Assembly (NCBI RefSeq): GCF_004339765.1
Contig: NZ_SMGO01000001.1
Coordinates: 1,116,001-1,180,000 of the forward strand
Source of the DNA: Albibacterium bauzanense
Lineage (GTDB): Bacteria; Bacteroidota; Bacteroidia; Sphingobacteriales; Sphingobacteriaceae
Direction of reading: 5' to 3'
DNA: 64,000 bases
Part shown: positions 2,281 to 50,676 of the stretch, one piece after another
Numbering within the stretch: position 1 is the first letter of the stretch
How the letters are laid out: each line of letters opens with the position of its first letter
Notes under the pieces: model-generated
What the model was told of the DNA's origin: nothing
Databases searched by the model: none
What the model saw: only the letters and a program-made list of their open reading frames with translations
Translations under genes and position numbers: made by a program

Positions 2281-4198
2281 GGGTTTCAAGTTTTCCGAAT
2301 TTTCGTAGTTCATACTCTTTAGACATTAAAAATATAAGAGGTGTCACCAAAAGGATGTGAATAGAAGATGTAAAAACACCCCCAATCATTGGCAGTACAA
2401 TAGGTTTCATAATATCAGTACCAACACCAGTTGCCCATAGTATAGGTACCAGTCCAAATAACGAAACACAAACGGTCATAATTTTAGGCCGTAAGCGTTT
2501 GCTTGCTCCCCAAATCACATACTTTCTCAAATCCGCTTTACTAATGGTTTCTCTGCTATTGCCTTTTTCTTTGATCAATTGCTGCATGGCATCATTTAGA
2601 TAAATCACCATCACAATACCTGTTTCAACCGCAATTCCAAAAAGGGCGATAAAACCAACAGCGACTCCAATAGAAAGATTAGCACCCCAGAAATAAACCA
2701 TATATACACCTCCAATCAGTGCAAATGGTATTGTTATTAAGCTCAGGAAGGCTTCTCTAACAGAATGAAATGCAAAATAAAGTGAGAAGAAAATGATGAC
2801 CAAAACAACCGGTGCAATCCAAATTAATGTTTGTTGCCCACGGATCAGGTTTTCATATTGACCGCTCCATTCTAAGAAATAACCCCGTGGCAGAATACCA
2901 TCTGCAGCATTCAATTTCTCCATCGCTTCCTCAACTGTACTTCCTAAATCCCGATCACGAACATTAAACATAACCGCTCCGCGCAATAAAGCATTTTCTG
3001 AAGTGATCATAGGTGGTCCCTCTTCAAACTTAATAGTCGCCACAGCACTTAAAGGAACTTCGCCAAATACAGGACTCATTAAAGGGATCCGATTGAGTTG
3101 ATCAATGCTATTTCGATAGTCTTGCAACAAGCGAACATTAATACTAAAGCGCTGTCTTCCCTCAATGGTCTGTCCAACAGGAGCACCACCAATGGCAGAT
3201 TCAACAGTCTGGTTCACATCATCAACATTCAATCCATACCGAGCTAACGCATCCCTATTGATATCAACATTTAAATATTTTCCACCAGTTACCGGCTCCA
3301 CAAAAAGATCCTGAACTCCTGGCGTACCTTCCAAAGCATTCCTTACTTTTTCTGAAACATTGGCAATAGTATCCAGATTCTGACCATATACTTTAATTCC
3401 AACATCTGTACGAATACCCGTTGCAAGCATATTTATCCGATTAATAATCGGCTGCGTCCATCCATTCACTACTCCAGGAATCTGAAGCTTTGTGTCCAGC
3501 TCTTTAATAATATCGTCTTTAGTTATTCCTTCTCTCCATTGATTTTTTGGTTTAAGCATAATCATTGTTTCAATCATGCTTAAAGGAGAGTTATCTGTAG
3601 ATGTACTGGCTCTACCAGCTTTACCCAATACCTTATCTACCTCGGGCACCTGTTTAATGATCTTATCCTGAACCTGCAAAATTCTTCTGATCTCATCATT
3701 ACTTACATCAGGTAAGGTTACCGGCATAAACAATATACTCTGTTCATCCAGCGTCGGCATAAACTCAGATCCCATGTTCTTTAACACAGGAATAGTAATT
3801 AATAATGCAAGGATATTAATAGCCAGCGTAGTTTTCCGCCACTCTAAAACCCATTCTATTATAGGCTCATAGATCCGTTCTAAGAAACGATTCACCGGAT
3901 TTGAACTATCAGGTTTAAATTTACCTTTCATAAAAAAGGAAATCAATACCGGCGCCAATGTTAACACCAATAAAGCATCCACAATCATGATGAAAGTCTT
4001 GGTATAAGCAATGGGATGAAACATCTTTCCTTCCTGTCCTGTCAACATAAATACCGGAAGAAAAGAAGTGATAATAATTACAGTGGCAAAGAAAACACCA
4101 CGACTTACCTGCTTGCTGCTCTTTTCAATGATTTGAAGCCTCTCTTCTTCAGATATCCATTGAGGCGTCTTTTTAAATAATCTTTTAAACCAATTCAT
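2264..4198 (-). CDS. CusA-like heavy-metal RND pump, C-terminal part (split gene)
   Basis: 644 residues matching the part of a CusA/CzcA pump from just before TM5 to the C-terminus. It begins with a basic cytoplasmic stretch and ISEEERLQIIEKSSKQVSRG, then the TM5-6 region (VFFATVIIITSFLPVF, LTGQEGKMFHPIAYTKTF), the second periplasmic porter domain (GSEFMPTLDEQSILFMPVTLP, a typical HME-family signature), and TM8-12 ending in PMIGGVFTSSIHILLVTPLIFLM. The upstream ORF encodes the missing N-terminal part. Its stop and this ATG are arranged as TAG-C-ATG, so the two are in different frames one base apart. Together they give about 1075 residues, near the usual 1040-1050 of CusA. Either a frameshifted gene, a sequencing error, or a real two-chain pump with translational coupling. 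Confidence 0.85.
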   Translation of the reverse strand: MNWFKRLFKKTPQWISEEERLQIIEKSSKQVSRGVFFATVIIITSFLPVFMLTGQEGKMFHPIAYTKTFIMIVDALLVLTLAPVLISFFMKGKFKPDSSNPVNRFLERIYEPIIEWVLEWRKTTLAINILALLITIPVLKNMGSEFMPTLDEQSILFMPVTLPDVSNDEIRRILQVQDKIIKQVPEVDKVLGKAGRASTSTDNSPLSMIETMIMLKPKNQWREGITKDDIIKELDTKLQIPGVVNGWTQPIINRINMLATGIRTDVGIKVYGQNLDTIANVSEKVRNALEGTPGVQDLFVEPVTGGKYLNVDINRDALARYGLNVDDVNQTVESAIGGAPVGQTIEGRQRFSINVRLLQDYRNSIDQLNRIPLMSPVFGEVPLSAVATIKFEEGPPMITSENALLRGAVMFNVRDRDLGSTVEEAMEKLNAADGILPRGYFLEWSGQYENLIRGQQTLIWIAPVVLVIIFFSLYFAFHSVREAFLSLITIPFALIGGVYMVYFWGANLSIGVAVGFIALFGIAVETGIVMVIYLNDAMQQLIKEKGNSRETISKADLRKYVIWGASKRLRPKIMTVCVSLFGLVPILWATGVGTDIMKPIVLPMIGGVFTSSIHILLVTPLIFLMSKEYELRKFGKLETHDAPH

Positions 4199-4199
4199 G

Positions 4200-5495
4200 C
4201 TATTCAGATTTTGATTTTTGACTTAATTCCCACTCATGATATCGGTCAGATAAGTGTTTATATGAATTTTCACTCATAATAATTCCATTATCTACAATTA
4301 CTCCAATAGCTAAAGCAATACCTGTTAATGACATGATATTAGAAGAAACTCCAAAAGCATTCAATAAAATAAAGCTGGCAGCCACCGTAATTGGTATCTG
4401 AATAATAATACTTAATGCGCTACGCCAATGGAAAAGGAAGATGATAACAATAAGAGAAACGATTATCATTTCTTCAATTAAGGTATTTCTAATGGATGAG
4501 ATTGATTCCTTAATCAATTCTCCACGATCATAAACTATATCAAACTTCACATTTTCAGGAAGCCCTTTACTCACTTCAATCATTTTAGCTTTTACATCGT
4601 CAATAACCTGAGCTGCATTCTCTCCATAGCGCATAACCACAATACCTCCTACTCTTTCACCCTCACCATCTTGGTCAAATATGCCCAGTCTTGCCTCACC
4701 GGTCATTTGCACAGTTCCAACATCAGAAACATAGATGGGTACTCCATTTTGATTTCCAACCGGAATTTTCTGGATATCTTCTATAGATTCCAGATAGCCA
4801 TTGGTTTTAATGATATAACCGATATCACTCACTTCGTACTTTCTACCTCCACTTTCATTGTTATTAGCACGAACAGCAGTGATAACATCTGGAACCGAAA
4901 GCTTATAATATAAAAGTTTATTAGGATCTACTGTTACTTGGTATTGTTTTTGAAAGCCTCCAAAAGAAGCTATTTCACTCACACCAGGAACATTCTGTAA
5001 AGCGAATTTAACATACCAGTCTTGTATTGCTCTTTGCTCTCCCAGATCCAAATCTGGTGCGTCCAATGTATACCATAAAATATGTCCTACTCCTGTTCCA
5101 TCAGGTCCCAATTGAGGTGTTACATCTTGCGGTAGCGAACTAGTTATCGTACTCAACCTTTCCGATACGCGCTCTCGTGCCCAGTAAACATCCACATTAT
5201 CTTCAAAAACCACGTAGATAAAACTCATTCCAAACATAGAGGTAGCTCTTACATAGTTAACTTTAGGCAAACCCTGAAGATTGGTAACCAACGGATAAGT
5301 TATTTGATCTTCAACTAATTGTGGAGACCGACCCATCCATTCGGTAAAAACAATAACCTGGTTCTCCGATAGATCAGGAATAGCATCAATGGGGTTGTTC
5401 TTTATAGAGAATATCCCCCAGATAAAAATCCCAATGCTAAGGCTTAATACAATAAACCGATTCCGTAAAGACCATTCTATTAGGCGATGTACCAT
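4200..5495 (-). CDS. CusA-like heavy-metal RND pump, N-terminal part (split gene)
   Basis: 431 residues covering TM1, the first periplasmic porter domain and TM2-4 of a CusA/CzcA pump. The N-terminus MVHRLIEWSLRNRFIVLSLSI, the motif VIVFTEWMGRSPQLVEDQITYPL and the TM4 motif GVIVDNGIIMSENSYKHLS are characteristic. The Asp in VDNG corresponds to the proton-relay aspartate of this family. The ORF ends in a charged cytoplasmic linker (WELSQKSKSE) where intact homologues continue into TM5. The rest of the pump is in the next ORF. The start is 2 bp after the DUF3347 gene, so they form one operon. The break lies in a cytoplasmic loop, which could tolerate two polypeptides. The alternative is loss of one frame register near the A-rich stretch at 4211-4220. 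Confidence 0.85.
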   Translation of the reverse strand: MVHRLIEWSLRNRFIVLSLSIGIFIWGIFSIKNNPIDAIPDLSENQVIVFTEWMGRSPQLVEDQITYPLVTNLQGLPKVNYVRATSMFGMSFIYVVFEDNVDVYWARERVSERLSTITSSLPQDVTPQLGPDGTGVGHILWYTLDAPDLDLGEQRAIQDWYVKFALQNVPGVSEIASFGGFQKQYQVTVDPNKLLYYKLSVPDVITAVRANNNESGGRKYEVSDIGYIIKTNGYLESIEDIQKIPVGNQNGVPIYVSDVGTVQMTGEARLGIFDQDGEGERVGGIVVMRYGENAAQVIDDVKAKMIEVSKGLPENVKFDIVYDRGELIKESISSIRNTLIEEMIIVSLIVIIFLFHWRSALSIIIQIPITVAASFILLNAFGVSSNIMSLTGIALAIGVIVDNGIIMSENSYKHLSDRYHEWELSQKSKSE

Positions 5496-10727: not shown

Positions 10728-11429
10728 CTATAATTCTTTTATCTGAATATTGCGGAACCAAACTTTATCATTATGGTCTTGCAATGCTATCTTACCTTTT
10801 TTATAGGTACCAAAACCAGGCCATTCAGCAAACTTACTTCCTGCAATCAATGCTTTCCACTCATCATTATACATGGTAGTAGTAACAATATTTACACCAT
10901 TTAAGAAGAACTGAAGCTTGCCATTATTACTAATAATCTCAGCCAGGTTCCATTCACCAACTGGCTTTGCCGGCTCAGAGCTCGAAGGAATTAAATCATA
11001 AAGATCACCAGCCCTGTGCTTAAATATCTTCCCATCAGGATGATTATCACTATCTAATACCTGCATTTCTGGTCCAGAGTTATACGTGTTAGCATATTTA
11101 TCTTTATCCTCGTGAATATTAAAAATAACACCGCTGTTACCGCCTTCAGATATTTTCCATTCTAATTTAAGATGATAATTCTCATACTCTTTATCAGTTA
11201 CCAAATCACCGCGATCATCTTGAGTTTTACCATCAATATTCAGATGCAAAGCACCATCACTTACCTCCCACGCCGCTCCTGCTTTAGCTTTTCCATAAGT
11301 ATGCCAGCCTTTGGTAGTTTTACCATCAAACAGAGATACCCATTCGCCTTCTTGTGCTGATACTTCATTAGCAGAGCTGCCAACAATCACAGCAAGCAAT
11401 GTAATAATTGTTGAAATTTTAAAAGTCAT
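10728..11429 (-). CDS. DUF1080 / 3-keto-disaccharide hydrolase-domain protein, secreted
   Basis: 233 residues: signal peptide (to about residue 25, NEVSAQ) and one DUF1080 (PF06439) domain, a concanavalin-like lectin/glucanase jelly roll. Family signatures are WVSLFDGKTTKGWHTY near the N-terminus, EGGNSGVIFNI in the middle and a final KGKIALQDHNDKVWFRNIQIKEL. Members described as 3-keto-disaccharide hydrolases cleave 3-keto-glycosides, and many are uncharacterised. A paralogue sits 1.4 kb upstream (12130-12867) and shares the EYENY-L-EWKISE-GNSGV core. The pair probably acts on sugars or glycosides in the periplasm. The substrate is unknown. Confidence 0.85.
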   Translation of the reverse strand: MTFKISTIITLLAVIVGSSANEVSAQEGEWVSLFDGKTTKGWHTYGKAKAGAAWEVSDGALHLNIDGKTQDDRGDLVTDKEYENYHLKLEWKISEGGNSGVIFNIHEDKDKYANTYNSGPEMQVLDSDNHPDGKIFKHRAGDLYDLIPSSSEPAKPVGEWNLAEIISNNGKLQFFLNGVNIVTTTMYNDEWKALIAGSKFAEWPGFGTYKKGKIALQDHNDKVWFRNIQIKEL

Positions 11430-11529
11430 TTTAAAAATAGATTTAATTTATTAATTCGATTAAGTATTCATATTTACCCTGTCAACAGATAAAATATGGA
11501 TGAAGATAATAAAATTAAAGAGAATTAAA

Positions 11530-11706
11530 CTAACGCTTTCCGATTCTGCTGACTAACCATATTATTAAAGCAATAACGATTACAACCAAGGCAATCCCGA
11601 AATACATTCCACCTTTAAAAATACCGGTGACTAACTCGCACGAACTTAATGAAGTCATCAAAATGAGGGCTGCGGAAGCCAATATAATCGATTTTCTACT
11701 ATTCAT
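11530..11706 (-). CDS. Small membrane lipoprotein, Bacteroidota-specific
   Basis: 58 residues starting MNSRKSIILAS. The first hydrophobic stretch ends in a lipobox-like TSLSSC, and a second hydrophobic segment (GMYFGIALVVIVIALIIWLVSRI) spans the membrane near the C-terminus. The ATG at 11706 is preferred over an in-frame ATG at 11733 because AAGGA lies at the right distance upstream. Short proteins of this shape are common in Bacteroidota and sometimes carry a doubtful database name (phosphatidate cytidylyltransferase). The sequence shows no such catalytic motif and the protein is far too short. Function unknown. Confidence 0.6.
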   Translation of the reverse strand: MNSRKSIILASAALILMTSLSSCELVTGIFKGGMYFGIALVVIVIALIIWLVSRIGKR

Positions 11707-11867
11707 AATTTTCCTTTTTAAAGATGTTTTCATTAATAAACCCAGAAAAAAGAAAAATGTTTTTAAATGAACAACTCCAGCCTATAACCGAGGTAACCTA
11801 ATTTTCAAATCAAATTTCCAGCGTCATATTTTGACTGTATAATAATGGTACGAAATTTATTTTAATC

Positions 11868-11972
11868 AAACAGAGGTTAAACAGTGGTCAAACAGTGGTT
11901 AAACAGTCCTTGAACAGTGGTAAAATGACTGTATAATCTCTGTACATTTACTGTTCAAATACTGGTTATTAT
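11868..11972. repeat. Array of 11-bp-phased ACAG repeats arranged as a dyad
   Basis: Five ACAG tetramers start at 11870, 11881, 11892, 11903 and 11914, exactly 11 bp apart; several units read nGGTnAAACAG. After a degenerate unit the orientation flips: CTGT starts at 11929, 11940 and 11951, with CTGG at 11962, again 11 bp apart. A 9-bp inverted repeat (TTGAACAGT at 11910-11918, ACTGTTCAA at 11950-11958) connects the halves. It lies in the 423-bp gap between the small lipoprotein gene and the second DUF1080 gene; nothing else in that gap looks coding. A related array is at 49504-49580. Confidence 0.8.
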
Positions 11973-12129
11973 ATTTATGGTGTAAACTATAATCTTTTAT
12001 AATAAGAGGATAAGATCTTTTTGATGCATTTTTAGCCCTAATACTGTTATTAACAGCCAGCTATAACAGTGAAAATGCTGAAAAAGCAGTACAAGGCTAT
12101 GAAGGGCTATGAGATCTTGGAAATGAATA

Positions 12130-12867
12130 CTATAGTTCTTTTATCTTTATATTACGAAAGGAAACGCCCTTCGACCAATCTTGTAAACCAATTCGCCCTT
12201 TAGTTGCCTTTCCATATTCAGGATAAACCTTAAATCCGCTGTTTGCTACCAACTCTCCCCATGCTTCTGTGTTTAAATCCTCTTCTGCAGTAAGTATATC
12301 ATTTAGATAAAATTCTATCTTCCCATTTTCCTGTTTTATCCTCGCTTGATTCCACTCACCTTGGGGCTTTGTTTTTGCTTCATTCTTTTGAGGATAAAAC
12401 CCATACAGACAACCTGCTCGTTTTTCGGGATTTGTTAAAAACTCAGGATTAGTATCTTCCAAAAGTTGATATTCCGGTCCAGAGGCCCAAGCCTTGGGAA
12501 TATCTTCCCTTTCTACAACATTGATAAAAACTCCGCTGTTTCCGGCTTCAGAAATCTTCCATTCAAATTTCAAATCATAGTTTTCATATTCTTTATTCGA
12601 AACCAGATCTCCATGCTCAACTCCCAATGATGAATCGGCAGGTAAACATTGAAGTTCACCATTTCGAACCACCCATGCAGATGGAACTTTTCCTCTATTG
12701 TATAAATGCCACTCATCGCTAGTTTTTCCGTCGAACAGAAGTGTCCAGCCATCTTTCTGTTCACTTTCTGACAATGCGTTTTCTGTTATTGCTTTTTCTG
12801 CACAGGAACACAAAAGAGTCATCCCTATAAAAAGACTAAAAATAGGCGTATAAAATGATTTCAGCAT
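12130..12867 (-). CDS. DUF1080 / 3-keto-disaccharide hydrolase-domain lipoprotein
   Basis: 245 residues with a lipoprotein signal peptide (lipobox around SLFIGMTLLCSC) and a single DUF1080 jelly-roll domain from about residue 38. Signatures are DGWTLLFDGKTSDEWHLY, YDLKFEWKISEAGNSGVFINV and the C-terminal GRIGLQDWSKGVSFRNIKIKEL. It is paralogous to the protein at 10728-11429 but has longer insertions (residues about 116-150, EREDIPKAWASGPEYQLLEDTN). It is likely a surface or periplasmic glycoside-processing protein. No strong terminator is visible; the downstream gap holds the 11-bp repeat array and a CTGTTA/TAACAG palindrome at 12044-12056. Confidence 0.85.
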   Translation of the reverse strand: MLKSFYTPIFSLFIGMTLLCSCAEKAITENALSESEQKDGWTLLFDGKTSDEWHLYNRGKVPSAWVVRNGELQCLPADSSLGVEHGDLVSNKEYENYDLKFEWKISEAGNSGVFINVVEREDIPKAWASGPEYQLLEDTNPEFLTNPEKRAGCLYGFYPQKNEAKTKPQGEWNQARIKQENGKIEFYLNDILTAEEDLNTEAWGELVANSGFKVYPEYGKATKGRIGLQDWSKGVSFRNIKIKEL

Positions 12868-46121: not shown

Positions 46122-46301
46122 ATCTTTGCCGTTTTTGAGGCATCTCCGTTATCGGACTGCAAATATAGAGCGATATTCTATATGTTGCAAAAATATTTCA
46201 CTTTTTTATTTCTTTAATTGTTAAAATGCCATCTGAATTGCCAAAACGTATCAGTATTTCATTTCAAATACTTAATTTCGGAGCGTAAACGAATTTGGAT
46301 T

Positions 46302-49300
46302 ATGAATTACAGCAAAATCAATAACATCTTAGGATGGTTGAGTTTCCTTATAGCAACACTCTCCTATATCTTAACACTGGAGCCAACCGCAAGCTTCTGG
46401 GACTGCGGCGAATTTATTGCTGCAGCCTACAAAATGCAGATTGTACATCAACCTGGAGCCCCTCTGTTCTTAATGTTACAAAACCTATTCTCAAACTTTG
46501 CAATGGGAAGACCAGAGCTGATAGCCTACTGGATGAACGTAGGATCAGCAGTTTCAAGCGGATCAACAATTCTGTTTTTATTCTGGACCATCACTGCACT
46601 TGCTAAAAAGGTAGTAAATCTAAAGGATGTAGAAATAACCCAGGCTCAATTAATCCAAATCATGGGCGCTGGCCTTGTCGGTGCATTGGCTTATGCTTTC
46701 TCAGATACTTTCTGGTTCTCTGCTGTAGAATCTGAAGTTTATGCCATGGCATCATTATGTACCGCAGTAGTTTTCTGGGCTATTTTAAAATGGGACTCCC
46801 ATGCAGACGAGCCTTACTCAGAACGCTGGTTAATTCTAATAGCCTATGTAATGGGACTATCCATTGGTGTCCATTTACTTAACTTATTGACCATTCCGGC
46901 ATTGGCCCTGGTTGTTTATTTCCGTAAAAATCAAAATCCAACAAGCAAAGGTGCATTAAAAGCCATGCTGATTGGTGTTATTATATTAGGCTTAATATTA
47001 TGGGGAATCATTCAATACTCCATCAAATTCGCTGCCTATTTTGATCTTTTCTTTGTAAATACATTAGGACTAGGCTTCGGATCAGGCGTATTCGTTTTTG
47101 CAGTTTTACTGATAGGCGGATTAACCTATGGCATCATTTACTCTATTAAACATCATAAAAAAACCTTAAATATCGTTCTGCTCTGTACTTCATTTATCTT
47201 TTTTGGATACAGCTCATTTACCATGATTACGATTCGTGCTAAAGCGAATCCTACCTTAAATAACAACGATCCGGATAATACCTTTGCGTTATTAGGTTAT
47301 CTGAATCGCGAACAATATGGAGATGATCCTCTATTTAATGGCCCTTATTTCGATTCAAAACCAATCGAATATGTGGAAGGTTCTGCCATGTATAGAAAAG
47401 GGGACGATAAATATGTAAAAATCGGGAACAAACCCAGCTATAAATACGATCGTGAAACATTGCTCCCACGTATCTACAGCTCAACTCCTGATCATATAAA
47501 CGTATACCGCAGCTGGCTTAATTTGGGAGAAAACGAACAGCCTCAATTCAGCGATAACTTAAAATTCTTGTTCTCCTATCAAATCGGACACATGTATGCC
47601 CGTTACTTTATGTGGAACTTCGTAGGCCGTCAAAACGATCAACAAGGCCAGGGGAACTTTACCGATGGAAACTGGATCAGCGGAATTAAGTTTATCGATC
47701 AGATGCGATTGGGCGGACAAAATGCTTTACCTGATTCACAGAAAAATAACCCTTCAAGAAATACTTACTTCTTCTTACCATTAATTTTAGGACTTTTAGG
47801 TGCTTTCTGGCACTTTAAACGCAATCAAAAAGATGCAGGTATCGTAGGTTTATTATTTTTCTTCACCGGTATAGCCATCGTACTTTATTTAAATCAAAGT
47901 CCGCTACAACCTCGTGAACGAGATTATGCCTTCGCCGGTTCCTTCTACGCATTTGCAATTTGGGTGGGATTTGGGGTTCTGGCGATCAGCGACTTCATTA
48001 AGAAAAAAGCAAATCATAAAACAGCTGCCATTGCAGCCACAGTCATCGGCCTTTTAGCCGCTCCGGTATTAATGGCTTCTCAAAACTGGGACGATCATAA
48101 CCGCTCTAATAAAAGCACCGCCAGAGATTTAGCTATAGACTATCTTGAAAGCTGCGCACCCAATGCCATCTTATTTACATACGGCGATAACGATACATAC
48201 CCGCTTTGGTATGCACAAGAAGTTGAAAACATCCGTCCGGATGTTCGCGTAGTAAACTTAAGCTTACTGAGTGCAGATTGGTATGTAAGACAAATGAAAG
48301 AAAAAGTGAACGAAGCTGATGCCCTTCCTATTTCAATGAAAGACAGCCAGTTTGTTCAAGGTACCCGTGATTTCATCCGCTATACCGACTATAAAATACC
48401 AGGCAATGTTGAACTTGAGAACGTTATGGGTATCTTACTGTCAGATAACCCGCAAGATCAGCAGCAAATGCAAGATGGATCTTACAATAATTTCCTACCA
48501 ACAAAGAACTTCAAACTAACTATAAACAAACAAGCTGTTGTAGAAAACAATGTTGTTCTTAAAGGCTGGCAAGATCAGATTGTAGACTCCATAGTATGGA
48601 CTTACAACAAAGACTATGTATCGAAAGCTGAATTATCAATTCTTGATATCTTAGTTAATAATAATTGGGAAAGACCTATTTATTTTGCACGCACTGTTCC
48701 TAGCGACAATTACTTAGGACTGGATAATTACCTGGTAACAGAGGGCTTTGCTTACCGCCTGATGCCTATACTTGCTTATACTCCGGAAGACGATCCAAGC
48801 CAGCAATCGGAAAAAATCAATACAGAAGCGATGTATGATAATACCATGAATAAGTTTGTATGGGGAAATCTTAAAACTGAGAAGTACTTAGATCCTGAAT
48901 CGTACGGAATGTTAAACCTGATCATGAATAACTTCAACAGCTTAAGCAATGCGCTGGTTGCTGAAGGAAAAATGGAAGAGGCAAAAGCCGTAATGAAACG
49001 CAGCCTGGAAGTTGTTCCTGATAAGATTTATGCAATGCGTGAAACCTTGCAAAAACAATCAATGGCAGAAAGCTTATACAAGGTAGGCGACATCGAAAAT
49101 GCGAATCGTATTGTTACCAATACCACCGATTACCTGGAACAGAACTTGAATTACTTCTTCACTATTGCAGACACTAAACCCAACCTGGAAATGAACAACA
49201 TGCAATTGGGAATGTATATCTTGCATGCAATGGATCAATTAACGGCACAGTATAAACAAACGAAAGAAAACGAACGCATCAAGAAAATATTTGCGGATTT

Positions 49301-49334
49301 CGAGAAGCGTTATGAAGTATCTGGTTTAAATTAA
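46302..49334 (+). CDS. DUF2723 multi-spanning membrane protein (GT-C-type glycosyltransferase-like)
   Basis: 1010 residues. The N-terminal half holds about 11-12 membrane segments and the DUF2723 signature EPTASFWDCGEFIAAAYKMQ with an Asp/Glu-rich first loop as in GT-C enzymes that use lipid-linked sugars. Further markers are QSPLQPRERDYAFAGSFYAF and TYGDNDTYPLWYAQE in the later luminal part. The C-terminal third is soluble. The ATG at 46302 gives a natural start MNYSKINNILGWLSFLIATL; an upstream in-frame ATG is 28 codons earlier and less likely. Related proteins are annotated as protein O-mannosyltransferase-like; that activity is family knowledge, not shown here. Confidence 0.88.
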   Translation: MNYSKINNILGWLSFLIATLSYILTLEPTASFWDCGEFIAAAYKMQIVHQPGAPLFLMLQNLFSNFAMGRPELIAYWMNVGSAVSSGSTILFLFWTITALAKKVVNLKDVEITQAQLIQIMGAGLVGALAYAFSDTFWFSAVESEVYAMASLCTAVVFWAILKWDSHADEPYSERWLILIAYVMGLSIGVHLLNLLTIPALALVVYFRKNQNPTSKGALKAMLIGVIILGLILWGIIQYSIKFAAYFDLFFVNTLGLGFGSGVFVFAVLLIGGLTYGIIYSIKHHKKTLNIVLLCTSFIFFGYSSFTMITIRAKANPTLNNNDPDNTFALLGYLNREQYGDDPLFNGPYFDSKPIEYVEGSAMYRKGDDKYVKIGNKPSYKYDRETLLPRIYSSTPDHINVYRSWLNLGENEQPQFSDNLKFLFSYQIGHMYARYFMWNFVGRQNDQQGQGNFTDGNWISGIKFIDQMRLGGQNALPDSQKNNPSRNTYFFLPLILGLLGAFWHFKRNQKDAGIVGLLFFFTGIAIVLYLNQSPLQPRERDYAFAGSFYAFAIWVGFGVLAISDFIKKKANHKTAAIAATVIGLLAAPVLMASQNWDDHNRSNKSTARDLAIDYLESCAPNAILFTYGDNDTYPLWYAQEVENIRPDVRVVNLSLLSADWYVRQMKEKVNEADALPISMKDSQFVQGTRDFIRYTDYKIPGNVELENVMGILLSDNPQDQQQMQDGSYNNFLPTKNFKLTINKQAVVENNVVLKGWQDQIVDSIVWTYNKDYVSKAELSILDILVNNNWERPIYFARTVPSDNYLGLDNYLVTEGFAYRLMPILAYTPEDDPSQQSEKINTEAMYDNTMNKFVWGNLKTEKYLDPESYGMLNLIMNNFNSLSNALVAEGKMEEAKAVMKRSLEVVPDKIYAMRETLQKQSMAESLYKVGDIENANRIVTNTTDYLEQNLNYFFTIADTKPNLEMNNMQLGMYILHAMDQLTAQYKQTKENERIKKIFADFEKRYEVSGLN

Positions 49335-49503: not shown

Positions 49504-49580
49504 GGATCAACCAAGGGTTAAACAGGGGTCAAACAGGGACAATTTGCCTGTTTGGTCCTTGGTTCGTCCTTGGTTGAATC
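49504..49580. repeat. Second array of 11-bp-phased repeats with inverted halves
   Basis: Left half in 11-bp units: GGATCAACCAA (49504), GGGTTAAACAG (49515), GGGTCAAACAG (49526). After a 7-bp centre the right half is the inverted form: CTGTTTGGTCC (49548), TTGGTTCGTCC (49559), TTGGTTGAATC (49570). Units are similar to those at 11868-11972 (GGTTAAACAG and GGTCAAACAG occur in both). The 385-bp gap between the DUF2723 gene and accA holds this array and two terminators, no gene. Confidence 0.8.
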
Positions 49581-49641
49581 TTATTTGTCTTTTATTTATG
49601 TAACGAGAAACCAATCTTAATCACATTTAATATTCGAGCAT

Positions 49642-49719: not shown

Positions 49720-50676
49720 TTATCCTTCAACCACAACACCCATCTTACAGAATTTATCAATTCGTTCTGCAATCAAGCTTTCTGTGGTTTTCAATCGCAA
49801 GGCTGCGATATCTTCTAATAGTTGATTTTTAATTGTATTAGCAGTTTCTTCAGGATTTTGGTGAGCTCCTCCTAATGGTTCTCTAATAATTCCATCGATT
49901 AAGCCATTGGCAAACATGTTTTCTGAGGTTAACTTCAAGCATTCGGCAGCTTTCTCCTTATAATCCCAGCTCCTCCATAAAATAGAAGAACAAGATTCAG
50001 GAGAAATTACAGAGTACCAGGTATGTTCAAGCATGTAAACTTTATCGCCAATACCAATTCCCAATGCACCACCCGAAGCACCTTCACCAATAATAACACA
50101 AATGATAGGAACTTCAAGAACAGACATTTCTAACAGGTTACGAGCAATAGCCTCCCCTTGTCCGCGTTCTTCTGCTTCTATACCTGGGTAAGCACCCATG
50201 GTGTCTATAAAAGTGACAACAGGCTTGTTAAACTTCTCAGCCAATTTCATTAAGCGCAAAGCCTTCCGATAACCTTCAGGATTTGCCATTCCAAAGTTTC
50301 TAAATTGGCGTTCTTTGGTATTTTTTCCTTTTTGATGTCCTATTACCATAACAGAAACACCACCGATGGTTGCAAAGCCCCCGATTATAGCTTTATCATC
50401 TTTTACGGTTCTATCGCCATGAAGTTCTATAAAGTCTTCGCAAATAAGGGAAATATAATCCAATGTTTGCGGGCGATCTGGGTGTCGCGACATTTGTACA
50501 TTCTGCCAACCCGTTAAGTTCGTATAAACCTTATTACGGGTTTTTTCAAGCTCAGCCTCAAGCTCACGAACGGTAGCTGACATATCGACCTTTGTTTTTT
50601 CAGCAACTTGTTTAACCTTTTCTAGCTGAACAAGCAGATCTTCTATTGGCTTTTCAAAATCGAATGTTGTTTCCAT
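49720..50676 (-). CDS. accA: Acetyl-CoA carboxylase carboxyltransferase subunit alpha
   Basis: 318 residues, the normal size of AccA, which with AccD transfers carboxyl from carboxybiotin to acetyl-CoA in the first step of fatty-acid synthesis. Markers are the N-terminal helical part ([18 protein letters not shown]), [34 protein letters not shown], and the crotonase-like active-site stretches [19 protein letters not shown] and [16 protein letters not shown]. Monocistronic. Confidence 0.97.

Follow-up and report, generated by a model that had tools for sequence, protein, structure and literature searches.

Exactly phased short blocks at one intergenic locus of Albibacterium bauzanense raise the question of what partner they have: a protein, a transcript or a copying machinery. 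In the window, i.e., the whole 64,000-nt stretch of contig NZ_SMGO01000001.1 that was analysed, ACAG starts at 11870, 11881, 11892, 11903 and 11914, in exact 11-bp steps. An inverted second half follows, with CTGT at 11929, 11940 and 11951 and then CTGG at 11962, in the phase of the ACAG half. This is the arrangement that an earlier, sequence-only reading had described, and its 12-bp string TGACTGTATAAT was indeed present in the window at 11832 and 11926 alone, with both strands checked. TRF called the left arm at 11868–11925 (period 11, 5.3 copies, score 74). Among 200 simulated first-order Markov windows, scanned at every period from 5 to 40, the longest phased ACAG/CTGT run was 2 in 178 and 3 in 22, and never 4 or 5.

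Table 1 Array elements in the window and neighbouring features.
Feature	Position	Strand	Basis or remark
Left (clean) arm, five 11-bp units, flavour A (AACAGTGGTYN)	11868..11923	+	TRF and motif positions
Central motif ACAGTGGTAAAATGACTGTA	11914..11933	+	Anchored listing of 16 flavour-A elements, including the window copy
Right (degenerate) arm, inverted units CTGT x3 and CTGG, 11-bp phase kept	11929..11972	-	
Second TGACTGTATAAT copy (centre/right-arm start), outside the array	11832..11843	+	
Second element, flavour B (AAACAGGGGTC / inverted TTTGGTCCTTGG)	about 49506-49585	.	Between convergent ORFs
3-keto-disaccharide hydrolase gene, PF06439	12130..12867	-	Pfam match

The neighbour that had been named as DUF1080 matched the Pfam family PF06439, which we take to be the same. 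Two PF06439 genes on the same strand stand on either side of the array region (10728–11429 and 12130–12867). The neighbours are probably incidental to the role of the array. The results below suggest that its meaningful partner is a DUF6266 protein, encoded elsewhere in the genome.

Phased dyads dispersed through the genome

In the 3.08-Mb genome (G000) the pattern ACAG(N7ACAG)2 had 56 matches (36 forward, 20 reverse), and the reversed pattern had none. Counted by hand, the matches fell into 24 distinct loci. Together with the second element of the window, which lies between the ORFs 46218–49334 (+) and 49720–50676 (−), and an array before a DUF6266 gene (L164), there are at least 26 elements. 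The sequence-only reading had staked itself on phased ACAG being commoner genome-wide than in shuffled sequence; since the counts go beyond both the reversed control and the simulation, it stands on this point.

The units come in two flavours, A (AACAGTGGTYN) and B (AACAGGGACCA / AACAGGGTTCA). Each element is an imperfect dyad of ~110 bp with a central motif between two arms, one clean, with nearly identical units, and the other inverted and degenerate yet still in phase. The central motif has the common variants CAGTGGTAAAAKGACTGT in the flavour-A elements, and is GGGAAAATATGACTGTT in flavour B. A related centre (at most four changes) was found at unrelated sites in 24 of the 26 elements tried, namely 16/16 in A and 8/10 in B; the two others, L044 and L048, were left out of the anchored listing. 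By eye, the clean arm was mostly on the left in A, but on the right in L036, L049 and L053, and mostly on the right in B.

Almost all dispersed arrays from three genomes (39/41) were outside every ORF of at least 80 codons. Gene orientation, counted without the DUF6266 loci and one coding chance match (L086), was 10 convergent, 10 codirectional, 3 divergent and one without call around the 24 arrays of G000; 4 codirectional, 5 divergent and one without call around the 10 arrays of the congeneric G001; and 3 codirectional, one divergent and 3 without call around the 7 arrays of G018. The suggestion that the arrays are intergenic thus holds, and the orientation counts give no consistent placement at convergent or operon ends. 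A placement at gene 3' ends, suggested by G000, was contradicted by G001. Promoters are not a consistent location of the dispersed arrays either, which counts against reading them as DUF6266 sites.

The ACAG pattern was matched in 15 of 41 genomes, with 56 matches in G000, 26 in G001 and 16 in G018; the reversed control gave 6 in G001 and none in G018. The other 12 genomes had one to four matches each, which look like chance. A four-unit pattern was matched in 21 of 400 genomes of the order, and its reversed control in 3 genomes (5 matches). We judged the single four-unit matches in G065 and G413 to be chance. In the 17 genomes remaining beyond these two, G000 and G001, the units start with AACAGG, in most cases AACAGGG with letters specific to the genome after it. 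In one coincidence, the congeneric loci L041 (G000:C2) and L082 (G001:C1) had arrays of different flavours in the same intergenic gap, between lipid-kinase-like and metK-like genes (named by eye).

DUF6266 genes and the arrays upstream of them

The genes directly downstream of arrays in six genomes have one N-terminal motif in common, and two of them were identified as DUF6266 (PF19781). This family was present in 23 of the 26 chosen genomes searched. G000 has three DUF6266 genes: flavour A stands upstream of the gene at L165 and flavour B upstream of that at L164, whereas no 11-bp array precedes the third (L150). Other DUF6266 genes were preceded by other units, e.g., TCGGACATTGT (L149), TAACTATATRC (L153) and TTCGGGAAGNG (L148).

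To have a set of named genomes picked by protein alone, we scanned with a DUF6266 alignment and, of 276 relatives, kept the 80 best, which by record title belong to Sphingobacteriales, Chitinophagales, Flavobacteriales and Bacteroidales. Genes with less than 200 bp upstream, or whose last 90 bp were nearly identical to those of another gene in either set, were dropped, leaving 49. A lag-11 self-match of at least 14 within 350 bp upstream was found for 21 of these 49 non-redundant genes, versus 7 of 173 other ORFs of at least 200 codons from the same loci. Of the seven positive control ORFs, four pick up the same DUF6266 array in the reverse reading direction, and a stretch of N accounts for one more. 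At a self-match of at least 20 the counts were 11/49 versus 3/173. The arrays lie upstream only: in a set biased by including genes fetched for their arrays, a lag-11 score of at least 16 was reached in the 300 bp upstream of 19/66 DUF6266 genes and downstream of 0/64. We regard the pairing of DUF6266 genes with 11-bp phased dyad arrays as well supported. The 28 of 49 named genes without a clear 11-bp array count against the DUF6266 reading, and so does the third gene of G000.

Periods of 10 and 21 bp were striking at single loci (10 bp at L275; 21 bp at L268, L262 and L263) and were rejected as evidence, being not clearly enriched: at a self-match of at least 14, lag 21 gave 4/49 versus 4/173 controls, and lag 10 gave 1/49 versus 3/173. 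The case for one unit in each helical turn hence depends on the 11-bp period. A long array with the 21-bp period, of a CATACCATTTGAAGTACTACC type, lies upstream of the DUF6266 gene at 345 in a Proteiniphilum MAG (L268), and L262 and L263 are similar.

Some genomes have expanded DUF6266 sets (35 genes in G165, 25 in G141, 23 each in G256 and G351), partly clustered, and an 11-bp array was absent from many of the genes read. No recurrent neighbour gene was seen by eye in 10 DUF6266 neighbourhoods. A Bacteroidota-type promoter consensus was present within 140 bp upstream of the start codon in only 3 of 51 DUF6266 genes, which is not informative.

Could the array instead serve as an operator for a classical regulator from another locus, such as an OmpR/PhoB-type response regulator, with the DUF6266 genes as its targets? 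PhoB/OmpR-type operators are 11-bp direct repeats, and the spacing here and the upstream position in the DUF6266 case would suit such a regulator. We nevertheless hold this to be very improbable. Such a regulator would have one unit per genome at its target promoters, whereas the DUF6266 paralogues of one genome differ in unit (A and B in G000; ACAG and TTCGGA in G001), so one regulator would not explain them. In addition, the dispersed arrays are copied ~110-bp dyads with related, asymmetric centres, they occur in all gene orientations, and one genome can have different units.

The DUF6266 protein was modelled by AlphaFold2 with 61 sequences (pLDDT 85, pTM 0.76). Residues 1–42 were uncertain, followed by helices at 43–69 and 79–90 and then a beta sandwich. 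The C-terminal sandwich was FnIII-like (Foldseek best E 4.9e-4; VIA-align Z 9.6 over 90 residues, 2.5 A). The N-terminal 108 residues alone (pLDDT 83, pTM 0.53) had no PDB match below E 4.9. The fold-search lists contained no DNA-binding or nuclease fold, which counts against DNA binding by DUF6266 and does not exclude it. In 80 DUF6266 proteins, a set that includes near-copies, the mean net charge was +5.0 for residues 1–45, +4.5 for 46–95 and −6.9 for 96 to the end, and residues 1–45 were net positive in all 80. This would suit a basic nucleic-acid-binding half joined to a protein–protein half. PHROGs gave two weak matches of no known function (E 0.093 and 0.29), and NCBIfam gave none. A tblastn search with one query found no DUF6266 in phage and plasmid records, and of 45 stretches of viral contigs that matched a pattern none was confirmed.

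Cooperative protein binding, proposed earlier from the phasing on one DNA face and the imperfect dyad, remains the best explanation. We think it somewhat probable that the window array is one of the dispersed sites cognate to a DUF6266 protein, and that one copy binds per helical turn. DUF6266 would recognise the 11-bp unit of its own flavour; its copies would bind along one face of the DNA, one each turn, and may oligomerise across the dyad. The array linked to the gene could give DUF6266 self-regulation. The dispersed arrays, including the window copy, would then be further binding sites, for chromosome organisation or local regulation, and would have arisen through copying of the element.

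Matching, conservation and spread of the unit

Unit type and DUF6266 protein travel together. When unit class was mapped on a tree of 44 array-linked DUF6266 proteins, 12 changes were needed, versus a mean of 25.6 after shuffling (0/200 as low). These 44 had a unit class recognisable by eye, seven as 'other', and came from 113 genes, a set biased by genes fetched for their arrays; part of the clustering follows from gene–array linkage alone. In one clade (SH-aLRT 100) the TAAC frame is constant and the core of TAAC-nnnnn varies: AGGGT in L119 and L109, and in G018, TCGGT in L152 and TATAT in L153 (G021). The dispersed sites of G021 also have the new TATAT core.

If DUF6266 sets the specificity, the unit of a DUF6266 promoter should recur in its own genome and be absent where another unit is expected. 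Units derived from promoters recurred elsewhere in their own genome in 6 of 8 genomes (G001, G021, G419, G420, G421 and G423), and all 27 genome–pattern pairs with another unit expected gave zero. In G021, where one DUF6266 gene was found, TAACTATATRC occurred at 12 further loci, with none in G000 and none for the reversed control. The TTCGGA unit of G001 had one further locus, a dyad, and none in G000. The CCCAGAC unit was confined to the two of ten genomes that have it in a DUF6266 array, Niastella populi (four further loci, one a variant) and Pedobacter quisquiliarum (one), with zero in the other eight. As expected, ACAGGGACCT was found in Niastella caeni alone (three further loci; zero in the other nine genomes). 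The GTACCAAGTCC unit had two further loci in G423 at 3 mismatches, with a pattern that missed the genome's own array, and zero in eight other genomes. For the same unit, G426 had the gene-linked array and no further locus, and in G424 nothing matched at 3 mismatches, not even the array before its own gene. Like the single further locus of G001, these two genomes count against the DUF6266 reading. Among the further loci that were fetched, five of the 12 in the case of G021, none had DUF6266 within about 3 kb.

Conservation was compared at six loci common to two or three species of one genus, one of them a DUF6266-linked array, in 14 pairwise comparisons. Identity was 93.7% in the left arm (624/666) and 78.3% in the 58-bp left flank (625/798); it was 83.9% in the centre plus right arm (817/974) and 69.9% in the stretch downstream (949/1357), some flank values being depressed by rearranged, non-homologous flanks (e.g., L171/L173). 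The left arm exceeded its flank in 11 of the 14 comparisons, and the three exceptions, with the arm slightly lower, are one locus (L299/L304/L310). Such arm conservation fits purifying selection or concerted evolution.

The number of units differed by whole units at 4 of the 6 orthologous loci, as it would in a tandem repeat without function that had expanded by slippage close to a few genes. This explanation is nonetheless hardly credible, given the same unit with a related centre at unrelated sites, the flavour match to DUF6266 genes, and arms mostly above their flanks in conservation.

An element acting at the RNA level, in which the dyad is a long transcript hairpin (terminator, attenuator or protein-binding RNA), would explain why several folds beat their shuffles: z was −3.0 (+ strand) and −2.3 (− strand) for 11866–11975 of the window, −4.0 for a DUF6266-linked copy and −2.6 for L209. 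L328 reached just −1.3, however, and no Rfam family was at its gathering score (seven matches at E ≤ 10 in window positions 11400–12200, each below its own family's threshold). The right arm is also less conserved than the left while the phase is retained, and the exact 11-bp period is held by units of unrelated sequence. We consider a hairpin role improbable, if slightly less so now that the 10- and 21-bp periods do not count as evidence.

With arms and a related centre at 24 of 26 unrelated sites, the elements must have been copied. One half of the earlier proposal, of a non-autonomous repeat that spreads, is thereby upheld; the other half, transposition, was shown by neither of the two flanks used for the empty-site search. 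The fuller version would be a selfish element like REP/REPIN-RAYT, in which DUF6266 and its array are autonomous and the dispersed arrays are non-autonomous copies, mobilised by DUF6266 or through a process that it recruits. We rate it as unlikely, and it is compatible with DUF6266 binding as the preferred explanation. About 26 copies with related centres at unrelated sites and flavours that match the linked DUF6266 genes speak for it. So do the presence or absence of an array at one locus between close species (L302 vs L351) and breakpoints at or near array edges, seen at the DUF6266 locus of G239 (L171 vs L173) and where a second flank used for the empty-site search was rearranged (L301 vs L344). 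Yet the L302/L351 difference is 430 bp, exceeds the element and could be a deletion, and no duplication was recognised there. Neither fixed ends nor a target-site duplication was recognised by eye among the 16 + 8 elements that could be anchored, no catalytic fold was found for DUF6266, and six arrays are common to orthologous loci and kept between species. The elements resemble bacterial MITEs in being short, dispersed, intergenic and non-coding and in having inverted arms; fixed terminal inverted repeats, target duplications and a transposase, by contrast, were not recognised here.

Several other repeats and insertions were seen around these loci. In L173 (G239:C25:148000-154600, reversed 3600–5151), a 357-aa gene, which from its N-terminus we take to be RhuM-like, comes right after the array-linked DUF6266 gene. 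Direct copies of the DUF6266 3' end (123 bp, 97.6%) enclose it on both sides, and the colinear loci of G018 and G200 are without it; it looks like an insertion at the DUF6266 3' end. A ~2.7-kb unit (about 83–96% identical; L247 2145–4870 and equivalents in L233–L261) carries DUF6266 and short GTACCAAGTCC repeats. It was found in many flavobacterial genera (Mesonia, Tenacibaculum, Winogradskyella and others) with mostly different flanks, which we read as horizontal spread. Another short dispersed repeat adjoins the array in L302 (about 2893–2936), with copies in G018, G200 and G239.

Known systems and what the pairing would mean

The closest logic is that of RAYT, in which a stand-alone gene has cognate dispersed palindromes and repeat and protein co-vary (PMC2817692). 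As in REP/BIME/REPIN-RAYT systems, the repeats are dispersed, intergenic and palindromic, with one cognate stand-alone gene per repeat type; there the repeat type co-varies with the cognate protein and is found where the cognate gene is present (PMC2817692), and co-variation with the protein was found here as well. The differences lie in the protein and the layout. DUF6266 (PF19781) is by family not a Y1/HUH transposase. Y1_Tnp (PF01797) was present in 4 of the 7 array-bearing genomes searched and had zero matches in G000, G001 and G420; with no Y1 transposase in this genome, the system is not REP/RAYT. The DUF6266 array is upstream only, whereas RAYT repeats lie on both sides, inverted, and the elements here are ~110 bp long and composed of 11-bp units.

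The plasmid centromere system ParR–parC offers a second comparison. Direct repeats of parC lie upstream of the system's own gene and are spaced by roughly one or two turns of the helix, with 11 bp in R1, 10 bp in pB171 and 20 bp in pSK41, and specificity varies between families (PMC9426499). Helically phased direct repeats upstream of the own gene were also found here, at the 11-bp period before 21 of the 49 named DUF6266 genes. Our arrays differ in being chromosomal and dispersed, and the predicted C-terminal fold of DUF6266 is FnIII-like. ParR is a ribbon-helix-helix adaptor with a ParM partner gene; no ParM/ParR pair was seen by eye in 10 DUF6266 neighbourhoods, and the fold search with the N-terminal half of DUF6266 gave nothing.

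The pairing of DUF6266 with phased dyad arrays in Bacteroidota is apparently undescribed. We hold it to be new because defining features of REP/RAYT were looked for and not found and the open-access literature searched gave no description of DUF6266 or of such arrays. If any cognate gene with dispersed palindromes were counted as one kind, the pairing would belong with REP/RAYT.

A broader reading, which we put forward tentatively, is that DUF6266 may be a large undescribed Bacteroidota family of sequence-specific DNA-binders with a re-codable unit, where each paralogue has its own array, with one unit to a helical turn, and seeds or maintains matching dyad sites across its genome. It would form a new class of system that joins a cognate gene to dispersed sites, independent of known transposase and partition systems. 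With the same reserve, a changed specificity, such as AGGGT to TATAT within the fixed TAAC frame, would shift the dispersed site set too.

The link to the arrays is the first functional lead for DUF6266 and provides a partner that can be tested directly. Should DUF6266 bind the arrays, the many natural pairs of protein and unit would be a ready-made set for a DNA-recognition code, and a class of Bacteroidota intergenic repeats would be explained. More generally, the pairing poses the question of how site networks evolve: here, how as many as about 25 matching sites and a gene with no transposase fold recognised keep pace with each other, even through a change of unit.
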